Source: an uncultured Bacilli bacterium (lineage in GTDB: Bacteria; Bacillota_I; Bacilli_A; RF39; UBA660). Taken from it: a stretch of DNA of 32,052 nt. Below are positions 1,787 to 13,523 of this stretch, piece after piece. The first letter of the stretch is position 1. Each line of letters opens with the position of its first letter. The DNA is taken from positions 1 to 32,052 of the forward strand of contig CALVSR010000011.1 in NCBI GenBank assembly GCA_944359075.1. Direction: 5' to 3'. The position numbers were made by a program, and so were the translations under genes. Under the pieces are notes generated by a model. That model searched no databases and had not been told where the DNA came from. It saw only the letters and a list, made by a program, of their open reading frames with translations.

Positions 1787-3361
1787 TTAGTTTTTAATAT
1801 CTCTTTTTGTATAAACAATATTCGTAATCCCATATAGAATTATAGTTACTACTATAGAAATCATAATTCCTCTCCCATAACTAATATTAGCTTGTTTTAA
1901 AATATTAGTATATGGCTCTAATTTACCATGAATAAATCCTACATCAAAGAATAAGAACGGTGTATAGATTAAAAATCTGCATTTTAAGTTAGCACATAGA
2001 AACCAGTAAATAGGAGATAGTATAGCTAAAATAGATGTAATTCCAACTGTTATACTGGTACTTAAAGTGATGGCAGATAAGAAAAATAAAATACTTAAAA
2101 AACAAATCACAGAAATACTAGCAACAAATAGCTCTTTCAACAAATATAAATAATAATTTACTTCTACAACATGATGATTCATATAAAGAAGTTTAGGTGT
2201 AAATAAATCTGTGAATCCGTATTTCATACCACTGTATAAGCTTAAGAATAATAAACCGATTAACCAGATGATATAAGCGTGGATTATCAAATAGATAAAC
2301 TTACTAAGTAATATCTTCCACCTTCTGACAGGTGCAGTAATGATATTTTTAATCGTACCTTTACTATGTTCTCCTGCAATAATATTTCCACTTGTAATAC
2401 TAACCAAAACCATAACTATTACCGAAAAATGAAAAATCAAATTAACATTAGATTTGGTAGTTAAATAAATATCATAGTCATCTATTTGATCATCACTATT
2501 AAATGCTAGATCATGCGGAATAGAATGCTCTTGACTATATAATATGATATTTCTTTTACTGATTGCATCCTCTTTTAAATAAGTATAATATCTTGCATAA
2601 TCTTGATAGGTAGGAAAAGAATTATTATAATTTTGAGGTTTAAACTCCGCTTTTTTTATTAATTCCTGATTTGCATGGATTCCTAGTTGATGGTATTGAT
2701 TTAGATTTAAAGCAAGATAATGATTACTTTTTTCAACCTTATTTAAAGCAATAAAATTAGCTATTTCTTTTTCTTCCTCTGGTATTAGTCCTTTATTCAA
2801 TAGATATTCCATATAAACATAATACTTATTAGACTTTAAAATGTTAGCATAGTCATTTATTTTTTCTTCATTTTCTAAATATAATGTATCTAGTTCTTGT
2901 TTTGGATATGCAGTACATAAATGATGAATTTCTCCTTGAAAAGGTGATTCAAATATATAGCTTGATGTATTGCATATTTGTTGTATCGTTGAACTATCAT
3001 AATTTTCTTTTAAGATTTTAATTCCAATATTAGTACTAGACAAACGAATCATCTCTTCTGCTAAATCTCTCGCATAATCATTCCCTTGTATTTCTAAAGA
3101 ATTTAAATAAGTATAAATTTTTCCTTTTACTTCATATACCATTAAATTATAATCTTCTTCTAATGTCCTATTTTCTTTATTGGATAATTCTTCTATTTTC
3201 TTTTGAAAATTACTGAAACTCCATACACTCTTTTCATACATTTTACTATATATTTCTACAAAACCTATGGATACTACTAACATAATAATACTAATTATTA
3301 CGAGCTTCTTAATACTGTAATTTTTAATAAACTCACTTTTTACTAAATTCACTATTTTCAT
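1787..3361 (-). CDS. ABC-2-type exporter permease with large extracytoplasmic loop
   Basis: Membrane partner (524 aa) of the HTH-ATPase encoded just upstream. It has one N-terminal membrane helix (about residues 15-37), then about 270 polar residues likely outside the cell, then about five further helices in the C-terminal half. The cytoplasmic stretch after the second helix (GEHSKGTIKNIITAPVRRW) is typical of ABC-2 permeases, where it contacts the ATPase. The frame opens at a TTG at 3379, but I choose the ATG at 3361 because GGTG lies at good distance before it. That leaves a 29-nt overlap with the ATPase gene, so translation is probably coupled. The substrate is unknown; peptide or antimicrobial efflux, or immunity, is a common role for this architecture. 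Confidence 0.8.
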   Translation of the reverse strand: MKIVNLVKSEFIKNYSIKKLVIISIIMLVVSIGFVEIYSKMYEKSVWSFSNFQKKIEELSNKENRTLEEDYNLMVYEVKGKIYTYLNSLEIQGNDYARDLAEEMIRLSSTNIGIKILKENYDSSTIQQICNTSSYIFESPFQGEIHHLCTAYPKQELDTLYLENEEKINDYANILKSNKYYVYMEYLLNKGLIPEEEKEIANFIALNKVEKSNHYLALNLNQYHQLGIHANQELIKKAEFKPQNYNNSFPTYQDYARYYTYLKEDAISKRNIILYSQEHSIPHDLAFNSDDQIDDYDIYLTTKSNVNLIFHFSVIVMVLVSITSGNIIAGEHSKGTIKNIITAPVRRWKILLSKFIYLIIHAYIIWLIGLLFLSLYSGMKYGFTDLFTPKLLYMNHHVVEVNYYLYLLKELFVASISVICFLSILFFLSAITLSTSITVGITSILAILSPIYWFLCANLKCRFLIYTPFLFFDVGFIHGKLEPYTNILKQANISYGRGIMISIVVTIILYGITNIVYTKRDIKN

Positions 3362-4331
3362 CTTGTTCACCACTTTCAAAACTCTCTGTCTTAGTAAAAA
3401 ATAATTCTTCTAAACTAATATTTTTATATTTAGCTTCTTCTATACCAAAATCACTAATGATATTACCTTGATCGATGATAATAACCCTATCACAAATATT
3501 TTCTACCTCTGATAAAATATGACTACTAATTAAAATACTCATATTTTGTTCCGTGCTAATCTTTTTTAACATACTTCTTAACTCTTTGATTCCTCTGGGA
3601 TCTAAACCGTTTGTAGGTTCATCTAAAATCAAAAGTTTGGGCTTTTTAATTAATGCATTGGCAAGGGCTAGTCGTTGCTTCATCCCCAATGAATATTTTT
3701 TTACTTTATCATGAATTCTATCATCAAGACCAACAAACTTTACCATTTCATCTATATATTCTTTATCCTTTATATCATTCATAAGAGCCGTTATTTGCAG
3801 ATTCTTCTTTCCTGTTAAATTTAGATACATATCGGGACTTTCAATAATGCTTCCTGTCTTGGATAAGGCCTTTTCTAAATCTTTTTGAATATCATAACCA
3901 CAAATTTTAATCTTTCCGGAATCCGCTTTGTATAACTTTAAAATCGTTTTAATCAATGTGGTTTTTCCAGCACCATTTGGACCAATCAATCCTACAATAT
4001 CACCTTCATACATCGTTAGATTAATATTATTTAGAATTTTTCTTTTACCAAAAGATTTAGATAAATTGGATACTTCTAGTACTTTACTATGATGATTGAT
4101 ATTAATTTCTTTTTTCTTAAATTGTCTTTCCCCATTTAAAAGTTCCTGAACTGTAACATGAAATATTTTAGATAATTCTGTTAAATAAGATATATCTGGA
4201 GCATTAATTCCTCTTTCCCATTTAGAAACCGATGTATCCATGATTCCTAGCATATTGGCTAATTCCTTTTGAGTTAATTGATTTTCTTTTCTAAGGTTAC
4301 TAATAAACAAGCCCATTTTTTCTTGATTCAT
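3333..4331 (-). CDS. ABC transporter ATPase fused to an N-terminal XRE helix-turn-helix
   Basis: Fusion protein of 332 aa. Residues 1-65 are an XRE HTH (LTQKELANMLGIMDTSVSKWE). A linker follows, and from about 85 there is a full ABC ATPase: Walker A GPNGAGKTT (117-125), signature YSLGMKQR (213-220), Walker B LLILDEPTNGLD (233-244) and switch His in ISSH (271). All catalytic residues are present. The ATG at 4331 is preferred over the GTG at 4340 because GAGGTG sits six bases before it. It is the first gene of a two-gene operon with the ABC-2 permease. The HTH may let the exporter ATPase regulate its own operon, for example by sensing transport state. That role is inference; the domain order is clear. 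Confidence 0.88.
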   Translation of the reverse strand: MNQEKMGLFISNLRKENQLTQKELANMLGIMDTSVSKWERGINAPDISYLTELSKIFHVTVQELLNGERQFKKKEININHHSKVLEVSNLSKSFGKRKILNNINLTMYEGDIVGLIGPNGAGKTTLIKTILKLYKADSGKIKICGYDIQKDLEKALSKTGSIIESPDMYLNLTGKKNLQITALMNDIKDKEYIDEMVKFVGLDDRIHDKVKKYSLGMKQRLALANALIKKPKLLILDEPTNGLDPRGIKELRSMLKKISTEQNMSILISSHILSEVENICDRVIIIDQGNIISDFGIEEAKYKNISLEELFFTKTESFESGEQDENSEFSKK

Positions 4332-4370
4332 AAGGGTCACCTCATGTTCATATTAACAGATATCAATAAA

Positions 4371-4403
4371 AAAGTATATGGCTTATTAGGCTAGTTATAC
4401 TTT
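4371..4403. promoter_or_regulatory. Perfect 8-bp dyad in the divergent intergenic region
   Basis: AAAGTATA (4371-4378) and TATACTTT (4396-4403) form a perfect inverted repeat, 25 bp centre to centre. It lies between the divergent exporter and uptake operons. It could be an operator for the HTH-ATPase. No T-tract suggests it is a terminator. Confidence 0.3.
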
Positions 4404-4444
4404 AAGGATGATTAAAATAAAAATACTAATTTTTGATTTCCATA

Positions 4445-4473
4445 ATAACACTTCACTAAAGTTTTCATATAAT
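4445..4473 (+). promoter_or_regulatory. Promoter of the ABC uptake operon
   Basis: Consensus -10 TATAAT (4468-4473) with ATAACA (4445-4450) 17 bp upstream. The predicted start at about 4480 leaves a very short leader, with the SD AAAGGAGGA (4482-4490) almost at the 5' end. There is no room for a riboswitch. Confidence 0.6.
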
Positions 4474-4493
4474 AAACTAGTAAAGGAGGATAT

Positions 4494-5489
4494 ATGAAAA
4501 AGATAATTTATTCGATTATTTGTATAGTCATTATTGGTTTGATTGCGCTATTATTTATTTTGGATCTAAATAAAGGTGATAAAAAGAATAATGATTTAGA
4601 GAAAATTCGAGTTGCTGAAGTTGCTCATACAGTATTCTACGCTCCACAATATGCTGCTATTAGTCAAGGCTTCTTTGAAGAAGAAGGTCTAGACATTGAA
4701 CTTATTTTAACACCAGGTGCTGACAAGGTTACTGCTGCTGTTTTATCAGGTGATGTTGAAATTGGTTTTTCTGGAAGTGAAGCATGTATTTATGTATATA
4801 ATGCCGGAGAAAAAGATTATTTAAAGACTTTTGCTCAATTAACTCAAAAAGATGGTACTTTCTTAGTATCACGTGAAAAGATTGATAACTTTACACTAGA
4901 TGATTTAAAAGGAAAGAGTGTCATTGGAGGAAGACAGGGTGGGATGCCAGAAATGACATTCGAATGGGCACTTCGTCAAAATGGAATTGATCCTGTTAAT
5001 GACTTAGATATCGATACTAGTGTTGCTTTTGCTGCTATGAGTGGTGCTTTTATAGGGGGACAAGGAGATTTTGTTACTCTATTTGAACCAAATGCACTAC
5101 AAATAGAACAGCAAGGATTGGGATATGTTGTGGCTTCTATTGGAGAACTTGGAGGAGTAGTACCATATACTTCTTACAGTGCTCGTATTAGTTACCTTGA
5201 ACAAAATCCTGAAATTATTGAGAAATTTACAAGAGCTATTCAAAAAGGACTTGATTATGTGCATAATCATAGTGATGAAGAAGTAGCTAGTGCCATACTA
5301 GAATTTTTCCCAGATACATCATTAAATGATTTAACTGGAGTTATTAAAAGATATCGTAGTATTGAAGCATGGCCAACTACTACTGAATTTAGTAGTGAAT
5401 CATTCTACCATTTGCAAGAAATTATGCAAGCTGCTAATGAATTAGATAATACTGTAAAATACGAAGATTTAATCTATATCAAGGACTAG
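4494..5489 (+). CDS. ABC transporter substrate-binding protein, NitT/TauT/SsuA (NMT1-like) family
   Basis: Extracytoplasmic solute receptor of 331 aa. Residues 1-24 are a hydrophobic N-terminal anchor without an obvious lipobox Cys, so it is probably held by an uncleaved helix. The mature fold starts near residue 40 with RVAEVAHTVFYAPQYAAISQGFF and continues with GLDIELILTPGADK, LSGDVEIGFSGSEA and DLKGKSVIGGRQGG. These are hallmark segments of binding proteins for nitrate/taurine/sulfonate or thiamine-precursor-like ligands. The exact ligand cannot be read from sequence. It is followed after 3 nt by its ATPase gene. The transporter is probably not functional here because that ATPase gene is interrupted. 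Confidence 0.85.
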   Translation: MKKIIYSIICIVIIGLIALLFILDLNKGDKKNNDLEKIRVAEVAHTVFYAPQYAAISQGFFEEEGLDIELILTPGADKVTAAVLSGDVEIGFSGSEACIYVYNAGEKDYLKTFAQLTQKDGTFLVSREKIDNFTLDDLKGKSVIGGRQGGMPEMTFEWALRQNGIDPVNDLDIDTSVAFAAMSGAFIGGQGDFVTLFEPNALQIEQQGLGYVVASIGELGGVVPYTSYSARISYLEQNPEIIEKFTRAIQKGLDYVHNHSDEEVASAILEFFPDTSLNDLTGVIKRYRSIEAWPTTTEFSSESFYHLQEIMQAANELDNTVKYEDLIYIKD

Positions 5490-5492
5490 ATA

Positions 5493-5981
5493 ATGAAACC
5501 AATCTTAAGTATTCAAAACTTACAAAAAACTTACCATGATATTGATGGAGAAGTATGTGCAATTCAAGATATTACCTTAGATGTTTATGAAAAAGAACTT
5601 ATTTCCATTGTAGGTCCTTCTGGTTGTGGAAAAACAAGCTTACTTTCTATCCTATCCAATTTAGAAAATAAGTCAGATGGTACCATTTCTTTTAATAAAG
5701 ATAATATTACATTAGGCTACATGTTACAAAAAGATGCATTATTTCCCTGGAAGACAATTTTAGAAAATTGCCTAATAGGATTAGAAATTAATCATACATT
5801 AAACAAAGAAACAAAAAATAGAGTTATTCAGTTATTAAATACTTATGGACTAGGAGATTTTATTCATAAATATCCAGATGCTTTATCTGGGGGTATGAAG
5901 CAAAGAGTTGCTTTAATTCGAACATTAGCTGTAGATCCAGATATTTTGCTCCTAGATGAGCCTTTCGCCCGATATTGTTAG
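5493..5981 (+). pseudogene. ABC transporter ATPase (SsuB/TauB-like), 3' truncated at prophage junction
   Basis: N-terminal 158 residues of a nitrate/sulfonate-type import ATPase. Visible are Walker A GPSGCGKTS (41-49), Q-loop Q79 (YMLQKDALFPW), signature LSGGMKQR (131-138) and Walker B ILLLDEPF (151-158). After DEPF (or DEPFA) the frame reads ARYC and stops, where homologues continue SALD or AALD through the D-loop, switch His and about 80-90 further residues. The family is normally about 240-260 aa; this is 162. The break coincides with the start of phage-type genes, so I read it as disruption by integration, not decay. SD AAGGA lies before the ATG, 3 nt after the binding-protein stop. The missing 3' part and the permease gene are expected at the far prophage end. 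Confidence 0.85.
5958..5972. other. Putative attL core at the host/prophage junction
   Basis: The ATPase family match stops within these bases (GAGCCTTTCGCCCGA). Left of them is conserved Walker B coding sequence; right of them is an inverted repeat and a phage HNH-like gene. The exact crossover cannot be placed without attR or an empty site. Confidence 0.5.
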
Positions 5982-6624: not shown

Positions 6625-6981
6625 TTATATTTGAAACTTTGAAATCATATCTAACTGATAGTCTTGATATTTCTGGATAAATTCTGTTTTTTTATCTATT
6701 GGTAATTCCCCAATTTTTTGACCCATTTTCGTTCTAGGACCAGTGTATATTTTAGTAGTTTTAATAATAGATTTTTTTGCTAAACCGATTGACTTTGCTA
6801 CGCTATCCTCCAATTCAACATCATAAATACCACAATCGGCAGATGAAGATATAATTACATAATGTATATCAACAAACTGTAACTGATTATTCCCATCATT
6901 TCCAATAATTAAAATAGGTCTAACTTTTTGCATACCATTATTAGGTTTGGTGGCAACATATGTCCAGATTTCCCCAATCAT
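6625..6981 (-). CDS. PemK/MazF-like type II toxin
   Basis: Predicted ribonuclease toxin, 118 aa. The N-terminus MIGEIWTYVATKP followed by KVRPILIIGND (R21-P22) is the characteristic opening of the PemK/MazF fold (GDIW..G...RPVLVI), and SIIKTTKIYTG supplies the second conserved strand with Thr residues. Known members cut mRNA. The ATG at 6981 is chosen over the GTG at 6990: it overlaps the antitoxin stop as TGATG and has AGAGGAG seven bases upstream. The pair is therefore translationally coupled, antitoxin first. It lies in the cargo zone at the left prophage end and could act in lysogen maintenance or in defence against other phages. Family confidence is good; target and role are not determined. 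Confidence 0.8.
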   Translation of the reverse strand: MIGEIWTYVATKPNNGMQKVRPILIIGNDGNNQLQFVDIHYVIISSSADCGIYDVELEDSVAKSIGLAKKSIIKTTKIYTGPRTKMGQKIGELPIDKKTEFIQKYQDYQLDMISKFQI

Positions 6982-7538
6982 CAATCCCACTCCTCTTCTT
7001 CTGGTTGAAATACAGAATTGATGAAGTAATTAGCAATACTTGATTTTGAAATCGTTTTATCGCTTCTTTCATCAGGGTCTAAGCCAACTCGTGCTAATAT
7101 CCAAGGTTCTTGATTATGTGTCATTTCTTCTAGAAATTTTGAGTCATATTTTGAAAAGTTATTTTTTACATAATTTAATATATCTAAGGTCTGCGGATCA
7201 AAGTCTATAAGTTGAAAGTTGACATCAATAGGATTGAAAGAAAAAGATCTAAATGTGTGATAAACAGATGGAACTACAGGACCATGAACCCACGCTTCCA
7301 TTTCTTCATAAAATAATTCTTTATCATTAAAGGCAAATGAAAATCCTTGAGATAAATATAGTAATTTTTGCAATTTTAATGGTTCTGGATGAATCTCATT
7401 TATAAACCATTTAGCAATATCTTGCGCACTATACCTTTTCAACATAATATCACTATCCTCTTTATTATTAGTTCTTTTTTCTAGCTTAATTAAATCATAC
7501 CACAAATTGGTGAAGAATACTATAACATTTTTCCACAT
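6981..7538 (-). CDS. Panacea-domain antitoxin (DUF4065 / SocA-like)
   Basis: Predicted antitoxin, 185 aa. The Panacea signature is clear: YSAQDIAKWFI (36-46), LKLQKLLYLSQGFSF (54-68) and WVHGPVVPSVYHTFRSF (83-99), ending in an acidic tail QPEEEEWD. Panacea domains are known to neutralise many unrelated toxins, each usually encoded next to it. Here the partner is a PemK/MazF-like toxin. The frame is open to a TTG at 7601, but the ATG at 7538 has the strong SD AAAAGGAG nine bases upstream and lies downstream of a promoter-like pair. A further ATG at 7445, with AGAGG, would begin just four residues before the domain. The extra N-terminal 30 residues could be a toxin-specific extension. Confidence 0.8.
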   Translation of the reverse strand: MWKNVIVFFTNLWYDLIKLEKRTNNKEDSDIMLKRYSAQDIAKWFINEIHPEPLKLQKLLYLSQGFSFAFNDKELFYEEMEAWVHGPVVPSVYHTFRSFSFNPIDVNFQLIDFDPQTLDILNYVKNNFSKYDSKFLEEMTHNQEPWILARVGLDPDERSDKTISKSSIANYFINSVFQPEEEEWD

Positions 7539-7583
7539 TTTGTCAATCTCCTTTTGCATTTTGTCATTTTTATTTTGCAACCT

Positions 7584-7613
7584 ATCATATATATTATTCA
7601 AAATAGAAATTAA
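7584..7613 (-). promoter_or_regulatory. Possible promoter of the toxin-antitoxin pair
   Basis: Minus strand TATGAT -10 (7584-7589) with a weak TTAATT -35 (7608-7613), 18-bp spacing. It lies after the late-operon terminator, so the pair could be transcribed independently of phage lysis genes in a lysogen. Confidence 0.3.
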
Positions 7614-7650
7614 TTTTACTTTATCCTATGCGTAATTATTTCTTAAAATC

Positions 7651-7694
7651 AAAAAAAAAGCCTAGTTCAGTACAATAAAGTAACTAGGCTTTTT
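7651..7694 (-). terminator. Strong intrinsic terminator after the lysis genes
   Basis: 12-bp stem AAAAGCCTAGTT / AACTAGGCTTTT (arms 7682-7693 and 7656-7667), followed on the minus strand by a run of nine T (7659-7651). It ends the late operon directly after the endolysin stop. The A-rich other side could give some plus-strand activity too. Confidence 0.85.
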
Positions 7695-7695
7695 A

Positions 7696-8742
7696 CTATT
7701 TTATATATAATTCTTCGTTTTCTTTTAATGGTATTTTGTAAGTTGCTGTTTTTGATGCTTTATAAGACCATTTAAAAGTTATTTCTTCTTTTGAGGATAA
7801 TTCTACTACTTTTGACTCCAACTCTTGAATTCTAGTGTTTTTTGTAGAGATTTCACTATCTTTTTGTACCAATTGATTATTAAGTTCTTCAATCTGTTTC
7901 TTCAGTAGTTCTATTTCTTCTTTAGAAGTATCTGTTTCTACTACTTTGCTTAATTCCTTACACCATTCTCCATCAGAAGCAATATAAATTCCACTTTCTA
8001 CTTGATACCATGTATATCCATCATTTTCAGTTTTAGAAATATAATTGTAGATTCCTTTATTGATATATCCTAATTTCTTACAATTTTTAGATGCACCATT
8101 TCTTGCATTTAGATTATCTACTAAGACTTCTACTTGATCTGCTTTATCATTTCTTGATACTGGTGTTCCTACCCTATCAACTGGCTTTTCCTTAAAAGTA
8201 CTACCATTACTATTTTTTATAGTTGTAAAGCTGGAATCAATATAAAAAGCTTCTTCTGGTAATAATGATTTTTCGTAGGTATAACACCATTTACCATTAT
8301 TATTTTGTTTCAGTCCATAATATTTACCAATATTGGCTGTAATATGAAAATGATTTCCTGTAGCATTTCCATCAGTACCTTCTAAAAGAATTTTAGTTCC
8401 TTTTTTTAATGTTTGTCCTTTTGAAACTTGTTTTAAATTATCTTCATTCATATGAGTTAAGGTAATGTATAAATAATCCGCCTCTTCTTTATATGGAATA
8501 TATAATTTATTTACAGATTTTAGTCTTACTGTATTAGTAGTAGAAGTATTTAATCCTAAAACTTCTTCTATAATAAAATCATTTTGTGGTTCAAAATAAC
8601 TTCTACCTGAATCTTTACAAGCTTCATCCCAAGGTTTATCACTATAATTAGTTACATTTTTCCAGTGTGGAATATGATTACCTTGATTATAATTTTGCGT
8701 GATATTCATTACACTAAATGGATAAATAGCATATTCTTTCAT
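7696..8742 (-). CDS. Phage endolysin: M23-like peptidase, SH3-like domain, C-terminal coiled coil
   Basis: Predicted cell-wall peptidase of 348 aa. Residues 1-140 resemble the M23 (LytM/lysostaphin) fold of Firmicutes phage lysins: YPFSVMNITQNYNQGNHIPH, DKPWDEA, THMNEDNL and GNHFHI. Likely zinc and catalytic residues are H26, D39, H97, H131 and H133; the pairing is my reading. Residues about 205-265 (VEVLVDNLNARNGAS, WYQVESGIYIASDGEW) are an SH3-like wall-binding domain. Residues 275-320 form a coiled coil, and a short basic tail follows, which is unusual for an endolysin and may oligomerise it. The gene starts at an ATG sharing one base with the holin stop and is the last gene of the late operon before a strong terminator. 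Confidence 0.75.
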   Translation of the reverse strand: MKEYAIYPFSVMNITQNYNQGNHIPHWKNVTNYSDKPWDEACKDSGRSYFEPQNDFIIEEVLGLNTSTTNTVRLKSVNKLYIPYKEEADYLYITLTHMNEDNLKQVSKGQTLKKGTKILLEGTDGNATGNHFHITANIGKYYGLKQNNNGKWCYTYEKSLLPEEAFYIDSSFTTIKNSNGSTFKEKPVDRVGTPVSRNDKADQVEVLVDNLNARNGASKNCKKLGYINKGIYNYISKTENDGYTWYQVESGIYIASDGEWCKELSKVVETDTSKEEIELLKKQIEELNNQLVQKDSEISTKNTRIQELESKVVELSSKEEITFKWSYKASKTATYKIPLKENEELYIK

Positions 8743-9110
8743 TAAATATCATCTCTCTTTATTTCAATTATTTCTTCATTTGTAGCATTCTCAATTGAAG
8801 TAGATACACCAATTATTTTTCCTAACTTTCCTAATACCATAGTCCCATACATAACAATCCCAGCAGTGTATAGATACTCTAATCCTTTCATTAAAGTAAT
8901 ATTTTCTTGATTAATAGAACCAATAATCATATCTGGATTTAATATTCCACAAAGATAGATTAAAATTAAAGCAAGAATAATCATTCCTGCTTTAACTCCA
9001 CCATTTATTAAATTATCTTTATTAAATTCTGCTTTTAATTTTGCTAAACTTGCTCCTAGTGCTATATTAGCACCCATAAGGCATAAAAGCCCTAATAATA
9101 ATTTCCACAT
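8742..9110 (-). CDS. Holin-like membrane protein
   Basis: Small protein (122 aa) with three hydrophobic segments (about 3-20, 38-57 and 76-97) and a charged C-terminal tail (EIIEIKRDDI). This is the profile of a class I holin that forms membrane lesions and releases the endolysin. SD AAGGAGGA lies before the ATG, and it directly precedes the M23 endolysin with a one-base overlap. The family is not recognised by sequence; the call rests on topology and position. Confidence 0.65.
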   Translation of the reverse strand: MWKLLLGLLCLMGANIALGASLAKLKAEFNKDNLINGGVKAGMIILALILIYLCGILNPDMIIGSINQENITLMKGLEYLYTAGIVMYGTMVLGKLGKIIGVSTSIENATNEEIIEIKRDDI

Positions 9111-9124
9111 AATATCCTCCTTCT

Positions 9125-9451
9125 TTACTTATTATGAATTTCATTAAATTTCTGATTTATATATTCAAATTCATGAGTTATATAAGAGTTATAACCCATT
9201 TTATGATATTTATCATAGATTTCAAAAATGTGTTGGAATTGTACTTTGGATTTATGCGTTCCTTGTCTTAAATCCTCTGCAAAGTTTACGATTTCTCCTC
9301 TAATATCGTCTACTGTATTTCTATCAATTTTGGAATCTAATTTTTTTACGGTTTTATCTAAATTTTCAATTTTTGTATTGACATCTTCCATTAAAAAATT
9401 CCTAATCATCTTAGGAACTTTTAACATGAATTTTTTTATTTGTTCTTTCAT
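9125..9451 (-). CDS. Small coiled-coil phage protein upstream of holin
   Basis: Protein of 108 aa with a basic amphipathic N-terminus (MKEQIKKFMLKVPKMIRNF), a coiled coil (residues 24-45, NTKIENLDKTVKKLDSKID), and a helical C-terminal part (EIVNFAEDLRQG, FQHIFEIYDKYHKMG, SYITHEFEYIN). Similar proteins occur beside holins in Firmicutes prophages, but I know no function. It could modulate the holin. The ATG at 9451 has AAAGGA seven bases upstream and is preferred over the longer open frame that begins at 9484 inside the previous gene. Confidence 0.6.
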   Translation of the reverse strand: MKEQIKKFMLKVPKMIRNFLMEDVNTKIENLDKTVKKLDSKIDRNTVDDIRGEIVNFAEDLRQGTHKSKVQFQHIFEIYDKYHKMGYNSYITHEFEYINQKFNEIHNK

Positions 9452-9468
9452 CTTTTTATCCTTTCTTT

Positions 9469-9903
9469 TTAGTCTATAAACCATTTTTCATGTATTCGAA
9501 ATTGTAAGGTTGCAGGAATATATCCGACACGCTCGTTGGCACTTTGCTCATCTTGATAAATTTCAACATTCCCAGCACTTGTGATTCTTCCACATACAAT
9601 TCTATTTAAACCACTTACAACGCAAGTAAAATATAATGAAACATTGCCAAAATAGTTTTTTATTTTTGGTAAATATTCACTAGGTACACTTCCTATTGTA
9701 TTATAACCATTTGCAAAATTAGTAGCATATTCCTCGAAATCTAAAATAACAGTTTTATTTTTCTTTTGTAATTTGTTGACCGTTATTTCACCGCAAGCCG
9801 TTGATGATATATCCAACTGAGATTCACTAATCTGTTGTAATTCTATTATAGATTTTGGTACCACTTTCTCATTATCCTTATTTTTCATTTCTACTATTTT
9901 CAT
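9469..9903 (-). CDS. Tail-fibre tip or decoration protein 3, shared N-terminal peptide
   Basis: Protein of 144 aa beginning MKIVEMKNKDNEKVVPKS, which matches the start of the two genes upstream (pattern MK..ELKNK..E...P). The rest is unlike them: a beta-rich stretch with YLPKIKNYFGNVSLYFTCVV and GRITSAGNVEIYQDEQS. I infer that the common N-terminus docks onto the fibre or baseplate and the variable body is an exposed tip or decoration domain. No good SD is visible; instead a perfect hairpin abuts the ATG. It is the last fibre gene before the lysis module. The body has no family I recognise. Confidence 0.55.
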   Translation of the reverse strand: MKIVEMKNKDNEKVVPKSIIELQQISESQLDISSTACGEITVNKLQKKNKTVILDFEEYATNFANGYNTIGSVPSEYLPKIKNYFGNVSLYFTCVVSGLNRIVCGRITSAGNVEIYQDEQSANERVGYIPATLQFRIHEKWFID

Positions 9904-9924
9904 AATTAGATCTTTTATCTAATT
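9904..9924 (-). promoter_or_regulatory. Perfect hairpin abutting the start codon of the third fibre-tip gene
   Basis: Minus strand AATTAGAT-AAAAG-ATCTAATT sits directly before the ATG at 9903. There is no canonical SD; only AGAAGAAA precedes the hairpin. It may lower or condition translation. Confidence 0.4.
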
Positions 9925-9930
9925 TTTCTT

Positions 9931-10338
9931 CTATTTATATCCAATAATTCTATTTATATAAATATTATTATCATTAGTAGTAATTGCTGCTGAACCAACC
10001 GTATTTTGATTATAAACAATATTAATCACCTTATCTTCTACTATTTTTATAATCTTATTTTGAAAATAGCTTGCATCAGAATTTACTACATTAACACCCA
10101 AATAGATTTGTTTATTATTAGCTTGATAAACCTCTACTGAATTATAATAATCATTGGCATTATAAAATATTTTTATATATTTATAATTAAGTGCACTATC
10201 ATTTAATATTATATTTTCATTAGATGCTCCAGAGAATAATATTGTTCCTTCCAGATTTTTTATTCTTTTCTCATAATTCAAATTAATTGGATCTAAATTT
10301 TCGTTTTCTTTATTTTTTAATTGTACTAATTTTTTCAT
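9931..10338 (-). CDS. Tail-fibre tip or decoration protein 2, shared N-terminal peptide
   Basis: Protein of 135 aa starting MKKLVQLKNKENENLDPIN, again the common KNK..E..P docking pattern. The remainder is Asn/Tyr/Ile-rich and beta-like (NYKYIKIFYNANDYYNSVEV, KQIYLGVNVVN), ending NIYINRIIGYK. It resembles short fibre-tip proteins that replace one another among related phages. The 15-nt gap to the upstream gene contains no SD, so expression may depend on re-initiation. Function is inferred from position and the shared N-terminus. Confidence 0.55.
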   Translation of the reverse strand: MKKLVQLKNKENENLDPINLNYEKRIKNLEGTILFSGASNENIILNDSALNYKYIKIFYNANDYYNSVEVYQANNKQIYLGVNVVNSDASYFQNKIIKIVEDKVINIVYNQNTVGSAAITTNDNNIYINRIIGYK

Positions 10339-10353
10339 ATAAAATTAGCTTAT

Positions 10354-10803
10354 TTATGCAACTCGCTTATAAAAATATACTACTTCTACTGGATGAATAT
10401 TATTATGTGCTTGTGAACCACCTTTACTTTCTGCAATAAATGTAGATCCACTACCACTTACAAGCTTATAACCCATAGTACCACTTTCATTATAAATATT
10501 ACTCCATGCAATAAATAATTGTGTTCCATCTACTGTAATATTGTGAAAATGATCTGGGATTTCCTCAATTGTTAAAGTATGTTCTTTCTCACCAAATTGA
10601 TTACCTGCAGCTTTAAACCTATCTTCTGCAGAATTAGGATTGATTCCTATTGGGCTTCTTTCTTTTAATGTAAGTTCCCATGTTCCATAATAATATTTAG
10701 ACATTTCCATTTCTCTATCAAATGTTAATATCTTGCCTATAGGTTCCCACTTTTTTGGAATAATAATCTCTCCCAATTTGTTTTTTAGCTCGATTATTTT
10801 CAT
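10354..10803 (-). CDS. Tail-fibre tip protein 1, collar / gp10-C-terminal-like
   Basis: Protein of 149 aa. The N-terminus MKIIELKNKLGEIIIPKKW carries the shared docking pattern. From residue 40 it shows the phage tail-collar / T4 gp10-C-terminal-like layout: YYYGTWELTLKERSPIG, FGEKEHTLTIEEIPDHFHNI, GGSQAHNNIHPVEVVYFYKRVA. The paired His segments (HFH, AHNNIHP) are conserved in these domains and may bind metal. Such proteins form the receptor-facing end of fibres. SD AAGGTG lies eight bases before the ATG. Upstream lie a G10 tract, a hairpin and a small ORF. Confidence 0.7.
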   Translation of the reverse strand: MKIIELKNKLGEIIIPKKWEPIGKILTFDREMEMSKYYYGTWELTLKERSPIGINPNSAEDRFKAAGNQFGEKEHTLTIEEIPDHFHNITVDGTQLFIAWSNIYNESGTMGYKLVSGSGSTFIAESKGGSQAHNNIHPVEVVYFYKRVA

Positions 10804-10836
10804 AAACGATCACCTTGAAAAAGAAAAGAAGAAAAA

Positions 10837-10923
10837 TCAAATATTTTCCTCCTTTCCTCGTTTTGGGGTGTTGTGTTGCTTAAATAAGCAACCCCCCCCC
10901 CACTTAAATTTTAAATTTTTCAC
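10837..10923 (-). CDS. Possible small ORF spanning the G10 tract
   Basis: GTG-started ORF of 28 codons (VKNLKFKWGGGCLFKQHN...), with AAAGGA about ten bases upstream. The G10 tract encodes W-G-G-G. If the tract loses one G, the frame instead runs to a TGA at 10802-10800 that overlaps the ATG of the fibre-tip gene as ATGA. If it gains one, translation stops four codons after the tract. Whether it is translated is unknown; it is too short for compositional tests. Confidence 0.3.
   Translation of the reverse strand: MKNLKFKWGGGCLFKQHNTPKRGKEENI
10865..10901 (-). repeat. G10 homopolymer with adjoining hairpin in late-operon gap
   Basis: The plus strand has C10 at 10892-10901, read as G10 in the transcript. 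It is followed by the perfect palindrome GTTGCTTA-TT-TAAGCAAC (10892 to 10875) and then CCCC (10868-10865), which could pair with the G-tract. Such a tract is exceptional in this AT-rich window and is prone to slippage. Confidence 0.7.
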
Positions 10924-10945
10924 AAATATCATATCCTTTCATTTT

Positions 10946-11164
10946 TTAATTTGTTTCTGCAGTTTCTGTTTCTGTTGTTGTAGTATCATATAATGTTATT
11001 GCCCCAGTTTCTTCGTTAATTTCGCCTACTACTTCATAAAAAATAGAATTGTTTTCTAATGCTTCAATACCACCTTCTATATTATTTAATTTTTCTGCTT
11101 CTATTGGTGTTTCTTCGCTAGGGTCATCCTTCCAAATTGTTTTTATGTAAGGTGTATATGCCAT
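10946..11164 (-). CDS. Small phage tail-region protein
   Basis: Protein of 72 aa: MAYTPYIKTIWKDDPSEETP then IEAEKLNNIEGGIEAL and an acidic, Thr-rich C-terminus (TTTTETETAETN). The TxW..G..TPI.A..LN.IE.GI pattern is very common in short proteins, or N-terminal segments, found beside tail fibres of Firmicutes phages. Its helix probably trimerises or docks the fibre. The start is the ATG at 11164 with SD AAAGGAG, not the longer frame to 11206 that overlaps the fibre gene. Confidence 0.65.
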   Translation of the reverse strand: MAYTPYIKTIWKDDPSEETPIEAEKLNNIEGGIEALENNSIFYEVVGEINEETGAITLYDTTTTETETAETN

Positions 11165-11183
11165 CTTATCACTCTCCTTTAAT

Positions 11184-13523
11184 TTAATTAAATTTTGTAT
11201 ACCCATTTATATATAATGTTGCTTTACATGCTCCACTCATTGCATAGCAATCTGAATAATTGCTTGGGGCAGATGCATCACTTTCTATTTTTAATAAATT
11301 AAAACCCTTATCTATGTACGAAATTATATCAATTGTTTTTTTGCTTGTCCCATTAGATGATGATCCAGTAAAACCACTATTTCCAAAAGCATTAGGTACT
11401 TCTGAAAATCCTGCTGAATCATATCCAAACATAGCATATCCATTATCAACAGTTATTTTTGTTGATAATTTACTAGATGACTTATATAATTTTAGATTTC
11501 TCGAATATCCTGTTGTAATAGGTGTACCGGCATTATAATAAGATACTGGGATATGATCTAAAATTATATAAGCATTCAAAATAGTAAAATCTTCTGGTAC
11601 TTCAAATGCAAATTCTAAACAATCTTTAACACATCCTGAGCCAGTATAGCTAAATCCCATAGGTAGTAGCACATTACCGCCTACAAATTCTTGTGATTTA
11701 ATATTTGCATCTATCATTTTGGTTGTTAACATACCGCTACCGCCTACTACAATACTGCCGTCTTCTAAATAGATATTCCCCTTAAATTTTCCACTATCAG
11801 CTTCAACATGTCCTGAAAATTTTCCATTTTTAGCCTCCACAGTTCCATCTTCAAGAATTTTAAAATTCTCATTTGCTGTTACTAACCCTTCGAAAACTAT
11901 TTTTTTAGCTAGTAGTTTTATTTCTTCTGGGCTCATATTGATTCTAGAAACTAAAATATCTACAGCTGTAGCATTTTCTATTTCTTGTTTAGTTTCTAGT
12001 AAAATGCCATTAGCTGAAGCCAAAATACTTGCTGCCATCTGTATTTTTGTTGCAAAAGTTTCTGTAAATTCATTTTTGATGGCATATGTTGCTGAAAAAT
12101 TTAGTCCACTGTTTTTAAAACTAGAAAGATAAATAACATTTTTACCATTTTTTAATGGTACTATTATATTATCGTACTTTATAACTTTTTCTTCGCTCAA
12201 TAAATATTCTTCATTATTTTCATCCACACCAATTCGCTTAATTAATTTTGTTTCCGTAGAATTAATAATGAATTCGTCGGATACTTCGCCAAGTTTTCTT
12301 AATCTCTTGACTGGTAATCTTATTTTTTCTTGTGTGCCGTCTTCATACTCAATAATTAAATAACTAGTTTTTCCATATAAATTACTAGATGGATATATTT
12401 CCTTTGAAGGAAAAAATAAAGACATTTGTCCTTTTATTCTGAGCTCTAGTATATTTCCTTCCATTGCCTCAGTCAATTCTATATTATCTAGATTAGTTAA
12501 GGTATTAGTTAGAGTGAGACTTTTAGTAACGGTTTGGGAGATCTGATCTAATAGTATAGATAACTCAGCCAAATTTAATGTTGGCACCTCGGTAGTATTT
12601 ATTCCTTTGATTTCTTCGATAATTTTTCCATTTGCATCTACTTTTTTAGTTAAATTTTCAGTAGTAGTTTTTTCAGTATATGTTTGTTTTACAAATGCTT
12701 TGATAGAATCACTTGACTTTACGATATCCGATTCAATATTGCTATTAATTACTTCAACAATTTTATTTATTTCGTCAGTTGTATAATAATATGACTCTAA
12801 AGATTTTAAAGATAATTCATCTTCTTTTTTATGCCAATCTAGGGGATTAAAAGTTGTATTAGTCACTGTTGCATAAAGAAAATCACCAATTTCAATATCA
12901 ATATTAAAATTACTTGCCACTTCGTCAGTCATAACTCTTATAAAATCATTTTTAATATAATTATTAGGAATTGATGTAAAAATATTTTTATGACCATTTA
13001 TAGTGTCAAAAATTGCAATTGGAACATTAATTTCCAACCAATCATATGTAATTGGATTCGTTGCTATTTTAGTATAAACATAAGAATGATATATTCCATC
13101 TTTTAATGTACGCCAATAATCACCCTCATGTTCTGCCTTTAATATCGATGTATCCCAATCACTGCTAGGATCATTATCTTGATAAAATGTTTCTATTTTT
13201 CCATCGGATTGCTCTTTAACATCAACCTCAGATAAAAAAAGAAAGTTTTCGGCAATTAGATTATTTTGCTTTTCATTGTAAATGACAACCCAATCCGCAA
13301 TAGAAAAAGAACCAATTAAACGATCCTTTATACAGCGATACACTTTATTATCCTGTGAATATGTCCAACCTACATAATAAGGAGGATTAGGAGGAGAACT
13401 AAAACTTTTACTATATGTTTTTATTTCTTTCTCTGTTTGTTCTTTAGAAAATGAAAGAATTTTCTTCAAAAAGCCATAATTTACCTGATCAGTATCATAT
13501 TTTGGTTCTTTTATATTTCCCAT
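11184..13523 (-). CDS. Tail fibre / tail protein
   Basis: Large structural protein of 779 aa. Residues about 45-82 (PPNPPYYVGWTYSQDNKVY, RCIKDRLIGSFSIADWVVI) resemble a small carbohydrate-binding-like module (xWxxG..Y..N..Y.C) found in fibres and chitinases. The centre (about 250-550) is helical and Thr/Glu-rich. At about 555-595 Gly-rich turns KNGKFSGHVEADSGKFKGNI and YLEDGSIVVGG form the triple-stranded beta needle typical of fibre shafts. The last 180 residues (from GGNVLLPMGFSYTG) are a distinct beta domain with four Cys, probably the receptor-binding or capping head. SD GGAGGTG lies before the ATG. No peptidase or lyase motif is visible. Confidence 0.7.
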   Translation of the reverse strand: MGNIKEPKYDTDQVNYGFLKKILSFSKEQTEKEIKTYSKSFSSPPNPPYYVGWTYSQDNKVYRCIKDRLIGSFSIADWVVIYNEKQNNLIAENFLFLSEVDVKEQSDGKIETFYQDNDPSSDWDTSILKAEHEGDYWRTLKDGIYHSYVYTKIATNPITYDWLEINVPIAIFDTINGHKNIFTSIPNNYIKNDFIRVMTDEVASNFNIDIEIGDFLYATVTNTTFNPLDWHKKEDELSLKSLESYYYTTDEINKIVEVINSNIESDIVKSSDSIKAFVKQTYTEKTTTENLTKKVDANGKIIEEIKGINTTEVPTLNLAELSILLDQISQTVTKSLTLTNTLTNLDNIELTEAMEGNILELRIKGQMSLFFPSKEIYPSSNLYGKTSYLIIEYEDGTQEKIRLPVKRLRKLGEVSDEFIINSTETKLIKRIGVDENNEEYLLSEEKVIKYDNIIVPLKNGKNVIYLSSFKNSGLNFSATYAIKNEFTETFATKIQMAASILASANGILLETKQEIENATAVDILVSRINMSPEEIKLLAKKIVFEGLVTANENFKILEDGTVEAKNGKFSGHVEADSGKFKGNIYLEDGSIVVGGSGMLTTKMIDANIKSQEFVGGNVLLPMGFSYTGSGCVKDCLEFAFEVPEDFTILNAYIILDHIPVSYYNAGTPITTGYSRNLKLYKSSSKLSTKITVDNGYAMFGYDSAGFSEVPNAFGNSGFTGSSSNGTSKKTIDIISYIDKGFNLLKIESDASAPSNYSDCYAMSGACKATLYINGYTKFN

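Follow-up and report, generated by a model that had tools for sequence, protein, structure and literature searches.

It is textbook knowledge that bacteria evade phages by homopolymer-slippage phase variation. In the contingency loci of Campylobacter and Neisseria, poly-G or poly-C tracts (poly-G of about 8–12) lie near the gene start and are polymorphic in length; one of the three frames is productive, and exposed proteins are affected. The Campylobacter tract is usually found within the host gene's own reading frame (PMC10877375). Elsewhere in such contingency loci the tract lies in the promoter. A different device is stop-start translational coupling, where the stop of a leader overlaps the next start as ATGA. 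Clusters of frame transitions have been classed as phase variation or as coupling (PMC3711429). A variable G-repeat in an mRNA leader also controls expression in the RepG/tlpB system of Helicobacter pylori, there by small-RNA targeting and not by a leader reading frame (PMC8295292).

Among phages, poly-G indels occur within the population of the Klebsiella phage MMNM, where one poly-G site is intergenic and one lies in an open reading frame for a non-virion product (PMC11633184). Diversity-generating retroelements vary receptor binding within a phage population (PMC8008677). DNA inversion likewise varies receptor binding by phage tail fibres.

The locus described here, ahead of a fibre-tip gene of a prophage, shares properties with these systems but differs from each. 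Unlike the Campylobacter and Neisseria tracts, its poly-G tract is in a separate leader open reading frame that is able to couple to the phage tip gene, and unlike ordinary stop-start coupling, the overlap exists only at certain tract lengths. The MMNM sites are not described as a tail-fibre leader in the relevant section of that paper (PMC11633184). Retroelement and inversion systems employ mutagenic reverse transcription or recombinases, whereas slippage at this locus would change the amount of a tip protein and not its sequence. The open-access literature that was searched, which does not include subscription journals or preprints, yielded no paper on poly-G leaders of tail-fibre genes. Both slippage switches and stop-start coupling have been described before; their combination in a leader before phage tail genes is apparently new. 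We consider it likely, with a probability of roughly 0.72, that the tract is a slipped-strand phase-variation switch of receptor tips that works by leader translation and by restart or unmasking at the tip gene. Expression has not been tested.

The tip-gene leader and its three frames

The window, i.e. the whole stretch of 32,052 nucleotides that was analysed, spans the whole of contig C11, one of the 90 that make up a metagenome-assembled genome of 1.34 Mb. A prophage lies in it: a family scan of the window proteins identified a terminase, a portal and a major head protein, and the tail module of this prophage reads on the minus strand. Among the 28 window proteins scanned there is no reverse transcriptase or invertase family near the tip gene. 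Close to regulators on the left of the contig are a MazF-like protein and ABC-transporter-like pieces (window 6625-6990 and 3333-5981). About 140 bases between the 86-aa tail gene (stop at 10946) and the tip gene hold a GTG leader, the G10 tract and two hairpins. The features, in the order in which they are transcribed, are:

10946..11206, minus strand: upstream 86-aa gene with a fibre-attachment-like N-terminus (PHROG 2012 minor tail protein, E 4.5e-5)
10934..10939, minus strand: AAAGGA, probable ribosome-binding site of the leader (from the sequence; AAAGGA is also in the nearest relative)
10837..10923, minus strand: leader open reading frame, GTG start at 10923-10921, 28 codons at 10 G (frames computed per tract length)
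10892..10901, minus strand: G10 tract, proposed slippage site (exactly 10 G; 11 G in the nearest relative)
10865..10895, minus strand: hairpin 1, formed by the last Gs and GTTGCTT-ATTT-AAGCAAC, with outer pairs to CCCC at 10868-10865 (predicted folds, local z -3.13)
10817..10859, minus strand: hairpin 2, about 17 bp and longer than hairpin 1, which buries AAAGGAGG at 10855-10848 (predicted fold)
10810..10816, minus strand: AAGGTGA, ribosome-binding site of the tip gene (from the sequence)
10800..10803, minus strand: ATGA, the tip start and the leader stop of the 9/12-G frame (frame computation; kept in the nearest relative)
10354..10803, minus strand: fibre-tip gene, 149 aa, with a Gp10_C domain (Pfam PF21939, 44.5 bits, cut-off 27)

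The tip gene also matches PHROG tail and tail-fibre families. The 86-aa gene probably has its real start at MAYTPYIKTIW, near 11164, and a 66-aa homologue is found at the same place in the nearest relative.

The tract is a homopolymer far above chance: window GC is 28.4%, a run of eight G is expected 0.07 times in shuffles of the window, and apart from this tract the G or C runs of the plus strand reach no more than 5. The frames of the leader are shown by computation at each tract length. With its tract as assembled, 10 G, the leader ends in the TGA at 10839-10837. At 8 or 11 G it stops at 10882-10880, four codons beyond the tract. Only at 9 or 12 G does it reach 10802-10800, where its stop overlaps the tip ATG as ATGA; at the assembled length this overlap is absent. 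The sequence-only reading had called a G10 run striking in an AT-rich phage, and had described the 28-codon GTG frame with a Shine-Dalgarno sequence, the stop at 10837, the outcomes at 9, 11 and 12 G, and a hairpin and CCCC just beyond the tract that can pair with the G-run. All of this held, and a second hairpin is added here.

How much does the ATGA say by itself? In 35% of shuffles of the window locus some frame ends within -20 to +2 nt of the next start (p 0.35), and therefore the ATGA by itself is weak evidence. The case for a switch rests on conservation in a relative and on the same design in other phages. As with all tract lengths in this study, that of the window is an assembly consensus and not a count of reads.

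Predicted folds of the leader region are shown by computation. The 151-nt region folds with a z of -4.42 against shuffles. The GTTGCTT/AAGCAAC hairpin sits immediately 3' of the G10 tract, and hairpins that resemble it occur at three other loci (L291, L327, L130). In hairpin 2 the predicted unpaired probability of AAAGGAGG is 0.002, and the mean for the stretch -15 to -5 of the tip gene is 0.58. The tip's own ribosome-binding site is thus only half buried, and it is possible that tip translation does not need the leader. With AAAGGAGG buried but the AAGGTGA region half open, the leader may therefore raise tip translation and not permit it, or it may guard the message from polarity. A TTG at 10840, behind AAAGGAGG, was considered as a conserved start and ruled out, as the nearest relative lacks the TTG.

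Conservation in the nearest relative

Genome contigs were scanned with the N-terminal part of the protein of an upstream 779-aa gene and with its homologues. Six loci were found, the best of which (L363; 79% protein identity) is from JAGBEP010000016.1, the metagenome-assembled genome of Clostridia bacterium RGIG9048 from water deer rectum. Gene order matches that of the window and the leader is the same, with a tract of 11 G as opposed to 10 G. The distance from tract to tip ATG is 88 nt in both, with 6 substitutions. AAAGGA, GTG and ATGA are all conserved, both hairpins are predicted again, and the frame outcome at every tract length is identical to that of the window. Conservation of the design is thus shown. 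From GTG to ATG the two sequences are 92.6% identical, compared with 83.1% over the 1000 nt that open the upstream 779-aa gene and 68% in the tip gene beyond its first 200 nt. The leader ends early in the relative (11 G) and midway in the window (10 G); neither assembly is in the ATGA phase. The sequence-only reading had named tract lengths in related prophages as a check on the switch, and here the relative differs by one G and has the same three-frame logic.

Poly-G leaders in viral contigs

Viral contigs (IMG/VR) were scanned for a Shine-Dalgarno sequence and ATG followed by a short leader and G8. The pattern was AGGAG...ATG; the window leader, with its GTG start and AAAGGA, does not have it. 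With ATGA starts at least 120 stretches were found. A leader was scored as coupled if one of its three frames ends -20 to +2 nt from the start of the next gene. The first scan gave 52 testable leaders, i.e. those without a fused long frame, and 37 of these are coupled, against 12.96 expected from shuffles (P <1e-5). A second scan, with ATGT starts, gave 18 coupled of 26 (7.90 expected, P <1e-5). Leader ends at exactly -4 number 16/52 in the first scan (5.10 expected) and 6/26 in the second (2.95 expected, P 0.03). Relative to the assembled tract, the coupled frame is +0 in 20, +1 in 15 and +2 in 20 of 55 leaders, so that it is in phase at the assembled length in 20/55 and out of phase in 35/55. 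This even spread fits tracts that drift randomly through all phases.

A harder control consisted of 124 tract-free Shine-Dalgarno–ATG leaders from the same loci. Fifty of these are coupled, 39 of them in the natural frame, a result to be expected when genuine small genes overlap the genes next to them. The tract leaders show no enrichment of natural-frame coupling (20/80 vs 39/124 in the tract-free controls), and ends at exactly -4 rise at most modestly (22/78 for both scans summed vs 26/124). The telling class is coupling that can be reached only through a change in tract length: coupling in a shifted frame alone is seen in 36/80 tract leaders vs 11/124 controls (Fisher P 3e-9). Fold strength separates coupled from uncoupled loci poorly (mean z -2.40, n=54, vs -1.97, n=16).

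What genes lie behind these leaders? Proteins behind the 56 coupled loci match tail, tail-fibre and collar PHROGs, and the Pfam families Collar (5 members), Gp10_C, Laminin_G_3 and Gp53-like_C (2 each). Behind the 24 uncoupled loci are major head, methyltransferase, Gam and one tail-assembly family. Where the family is known, genes behind coupled leaders are mostly tail-fibre, collar or lectin genes. The scan reports families and not members, and hence gives no per-protein fraction; many members may lack a match.

Tract-length differences and tandem arrays

Differences in tract length between related sequences are shown, although as assembly lengths only. Two IMG/VR records (L134 and L184) align over 5,604 bases with only two differences, each of one G, and both fall in leader tracts, one in each of two leaders (9 vs 8 in the first, 9 vs 10 in the second). 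The first leader is coupled at 8 G and not at 9 G; the second is coupled at neither length. Two further close pairs have tracts of 12 and 10 (L265/L309 and L129/L178). Fused-type leaders vary also, with 9 vs 10 in L296/L315 and 11 vs 8 in L158/L181. Some close pairs have equal tracts, e.g. L309/L355 (10, 10) and L165/L237 (9, 9). A tract of uniform length had been named by the sequence-only reading as grounds for refuting the switch; lengths do differ in otherwise near-identical phage DNA, in assemblies and not in reads. The proposal that slippage could phase-vary receptor-binding tips is thus supported by comparison, while the effect on expression is inferred.

Poly-G starts also come in tandem. 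A 127-kb contig (G400) has four tandem genes with a poly-G leader on each; the one array gene that was tested alone has a Collar domain. A 221-kb phage contig (G401; L281, L348) has ten tandem poly-G starts at 97389-107431, with tracts of 10, 10, 7, 9, 9, 8, 10, 10, 8 and 10. The tract is inside the gene's own start in all five starts that were read out. The single protein tested from this array has no PHROG or Pfam match, and the genes are inferred to be fibres from their tandem paralogy. The array may possibly be a combinatorial switch.

Other relatives and the host genomes

A DNA BLAST search with the leader in 386 genomes of the host family returned only its own locus in full; other places were discarded as short AT-rich matches (about 20–60 bases). 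The leader as an exact pattern had no match in viral contigs, and no relative was found there for either the tip or the 779-aa protein. Nineteen loci with tip homologues in the genus and the own genome (L014-L032) were inspected for G runs of six or more; apart from the window tract there was a single one, a G6 in G014. There is no long tract in the 220 nt upstream of ten tip homologues. The sister species G014 has nine tandem Gp10_C-like tip genes (L033, G014:C4:34000-52000, at 7077-11296), where TA microsatellites and structured spacers precede three of the tip genes; G5-G6 runs were seen between genes of this array and nothing longer. A second related phage, in the same host family (G207), has two small open reading frames with G9 and G8 amid fibre-module genes, but both fail the coupling criterion and were rejected as the same device. 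Coupling at family-genome loci is 3/10, against 1.49 expected (P 0.14). Annotated phages showed no match to the fibre regions or proteins of L145, L160, L127, L309, L134 and L348, and only short or distant matches to L129; therefore no cultured phage is named for the viral loci.

Poly-G tracts are also present in the genomes of the host genus, where they are found in promoter spacers of the form TTGACA...Gn...TATAAT-like (own genome and genus loci L044-L071). G9 is present in 16/17 genus genomes. Tracts of the own genome (G000) are at C9:26595-26604 (L009), C50:1941-1949 (L012), C37:8334-8345 (L011) and C75:4142-4156 (L013). The spacers that contain poly-G are 19 bp at C9, 18 at C50 and 19 at C37, followed by TAGAAT/TATAAT, and the C9 and C50 tracts precede paralogous MKTNKLWLGILIGVL secreted-type proteins. 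Outside any promoter spacer, a G9 at G000:C34:4290-4298 (L010) abuts the ATG of a deaminase-like gene.

In the host family, the pattern of Shine-Dalgarno sequence, ATG, short leader and G8 occurs in 45/386 genomes, vs 22 for a reversed control pattern (hand tally). Thirty of the loci were read. At several of them one of the three frames encodes a long protein, often with a membrane anchor; at others a leader lies ahead of the next gene. Acyltransferase-like or membrane-anchored host proteins with 7-15 codons and then G8-12 are found at L095, L105, L106, L109, L111, L117, L123 and others; the long product is in only one of three frames, and there are often several copies per genome. One locus (L113) is closely like that of the window, with the leader MYKNKQKFEWGGG, a hairpin around the ribosome-binding site and a leader frame that overlaps the next start. 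The protein of 138 aa encoded downstream matches neither PHROG nor Pfam families.

Proposed mechanism and alternatives

In the proposed mechanism, ribosomes would start at the leader GTG and be fed to the fibre-tip gene. With 9 or 12 G they would cross both hairpins and stop on the tip ATG, where they would restart or keep the tip's start accessible (ON). At 10 or 11 G the stop would come 33 or 76 nt too early, and there would be less tip translation (low or OFF). Replication slippage would alter the tract by one or two bases, so that virions rich in tips and virions poor in them would coexist in one phage population. Three steps of this mechanism are inferred: frequent slippage, a rise in tip synthesis through coupling, and an effect on adsorption.

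Could the same switch act through transcription? An early stop in the leader would leave an untranslated stretch, and Rho or an endonuclease would remove the tip message, while a leader read to its end would protect it. This polarity model remains possible. Its frame logic is identical, and the tip ribosome-binding site is already half open, so that unmasking alone may not be key. Against it, no Rho site or terminator is shown (the sole terminator-like site in a scan is on the opposite strand), and restart is hinted at by leader frames whose stop falls right on the start codon. A tract of fixed length might instead cause RNA-polymerase slippage or ribosomal frameshifting and so yield a constant mix of products whatever the DNA length. 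G10 and then a hairpin could be a slippery site with its stimulator; however, such a site is expected to hold one length, whereas near-identical relatives differ in the tract length of their DNA and all three phases occur, and we consider this unlikely.

Two other explanations carry still less weight. Poly-G could be a promoter spacer that switches transcription. In this the tract would resemble many of those in the host genus, among them those at C9, C37 and C50 in the own genome, where a spacer of 18-19 separates TTGACA from TAGAAT/TATAAT. At the window tract, however, the best -35 and -10 have two mismatches each and a spacer of 24, and the tract is contained in an open leader that has the same frames in the nearest relative; this reading is very improbable. 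Also hard to sustain is the view that the tract is a non-functional homopolymer or a fault of assembly within an intergenic region that has hairpins. For the ATGA frame the window locus, taken alone, yields p 0.35, and homopolymers are error-prone in assemblies. But the same tract and leader are present in an independent metagenome-assembled genome, and coupling in a shifted frame recurs in phage leaders (P 3e-9). Assembly error had been the alternative offered by the sequence-only reading itself.

Significance

A slippage switch of the tip gene thus stays the preferred reading, and a bolder one can be put forward, towards which the evidence leans without settling it. Poly-G leader switches may be a widespread and apparently undescribed class of phage contingency locus, set on receptor-binding genes that stand alone or in tandem arrays with as many as ten or so members, each with its own switch, such that one genome could give a combinatorial mix of tips. 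Phages of this gut-host family and their hosts would then both use slippage in the same receptor contest.

There is a practical side, in that gene callers may drop or mis-frame poly-G leaders. If the switch is real, mixed tip expression would be explained without any enzyme, and phages would hedge receptor use with a device of their hosts, employed by way of a coupled leader and not within the gene itself.
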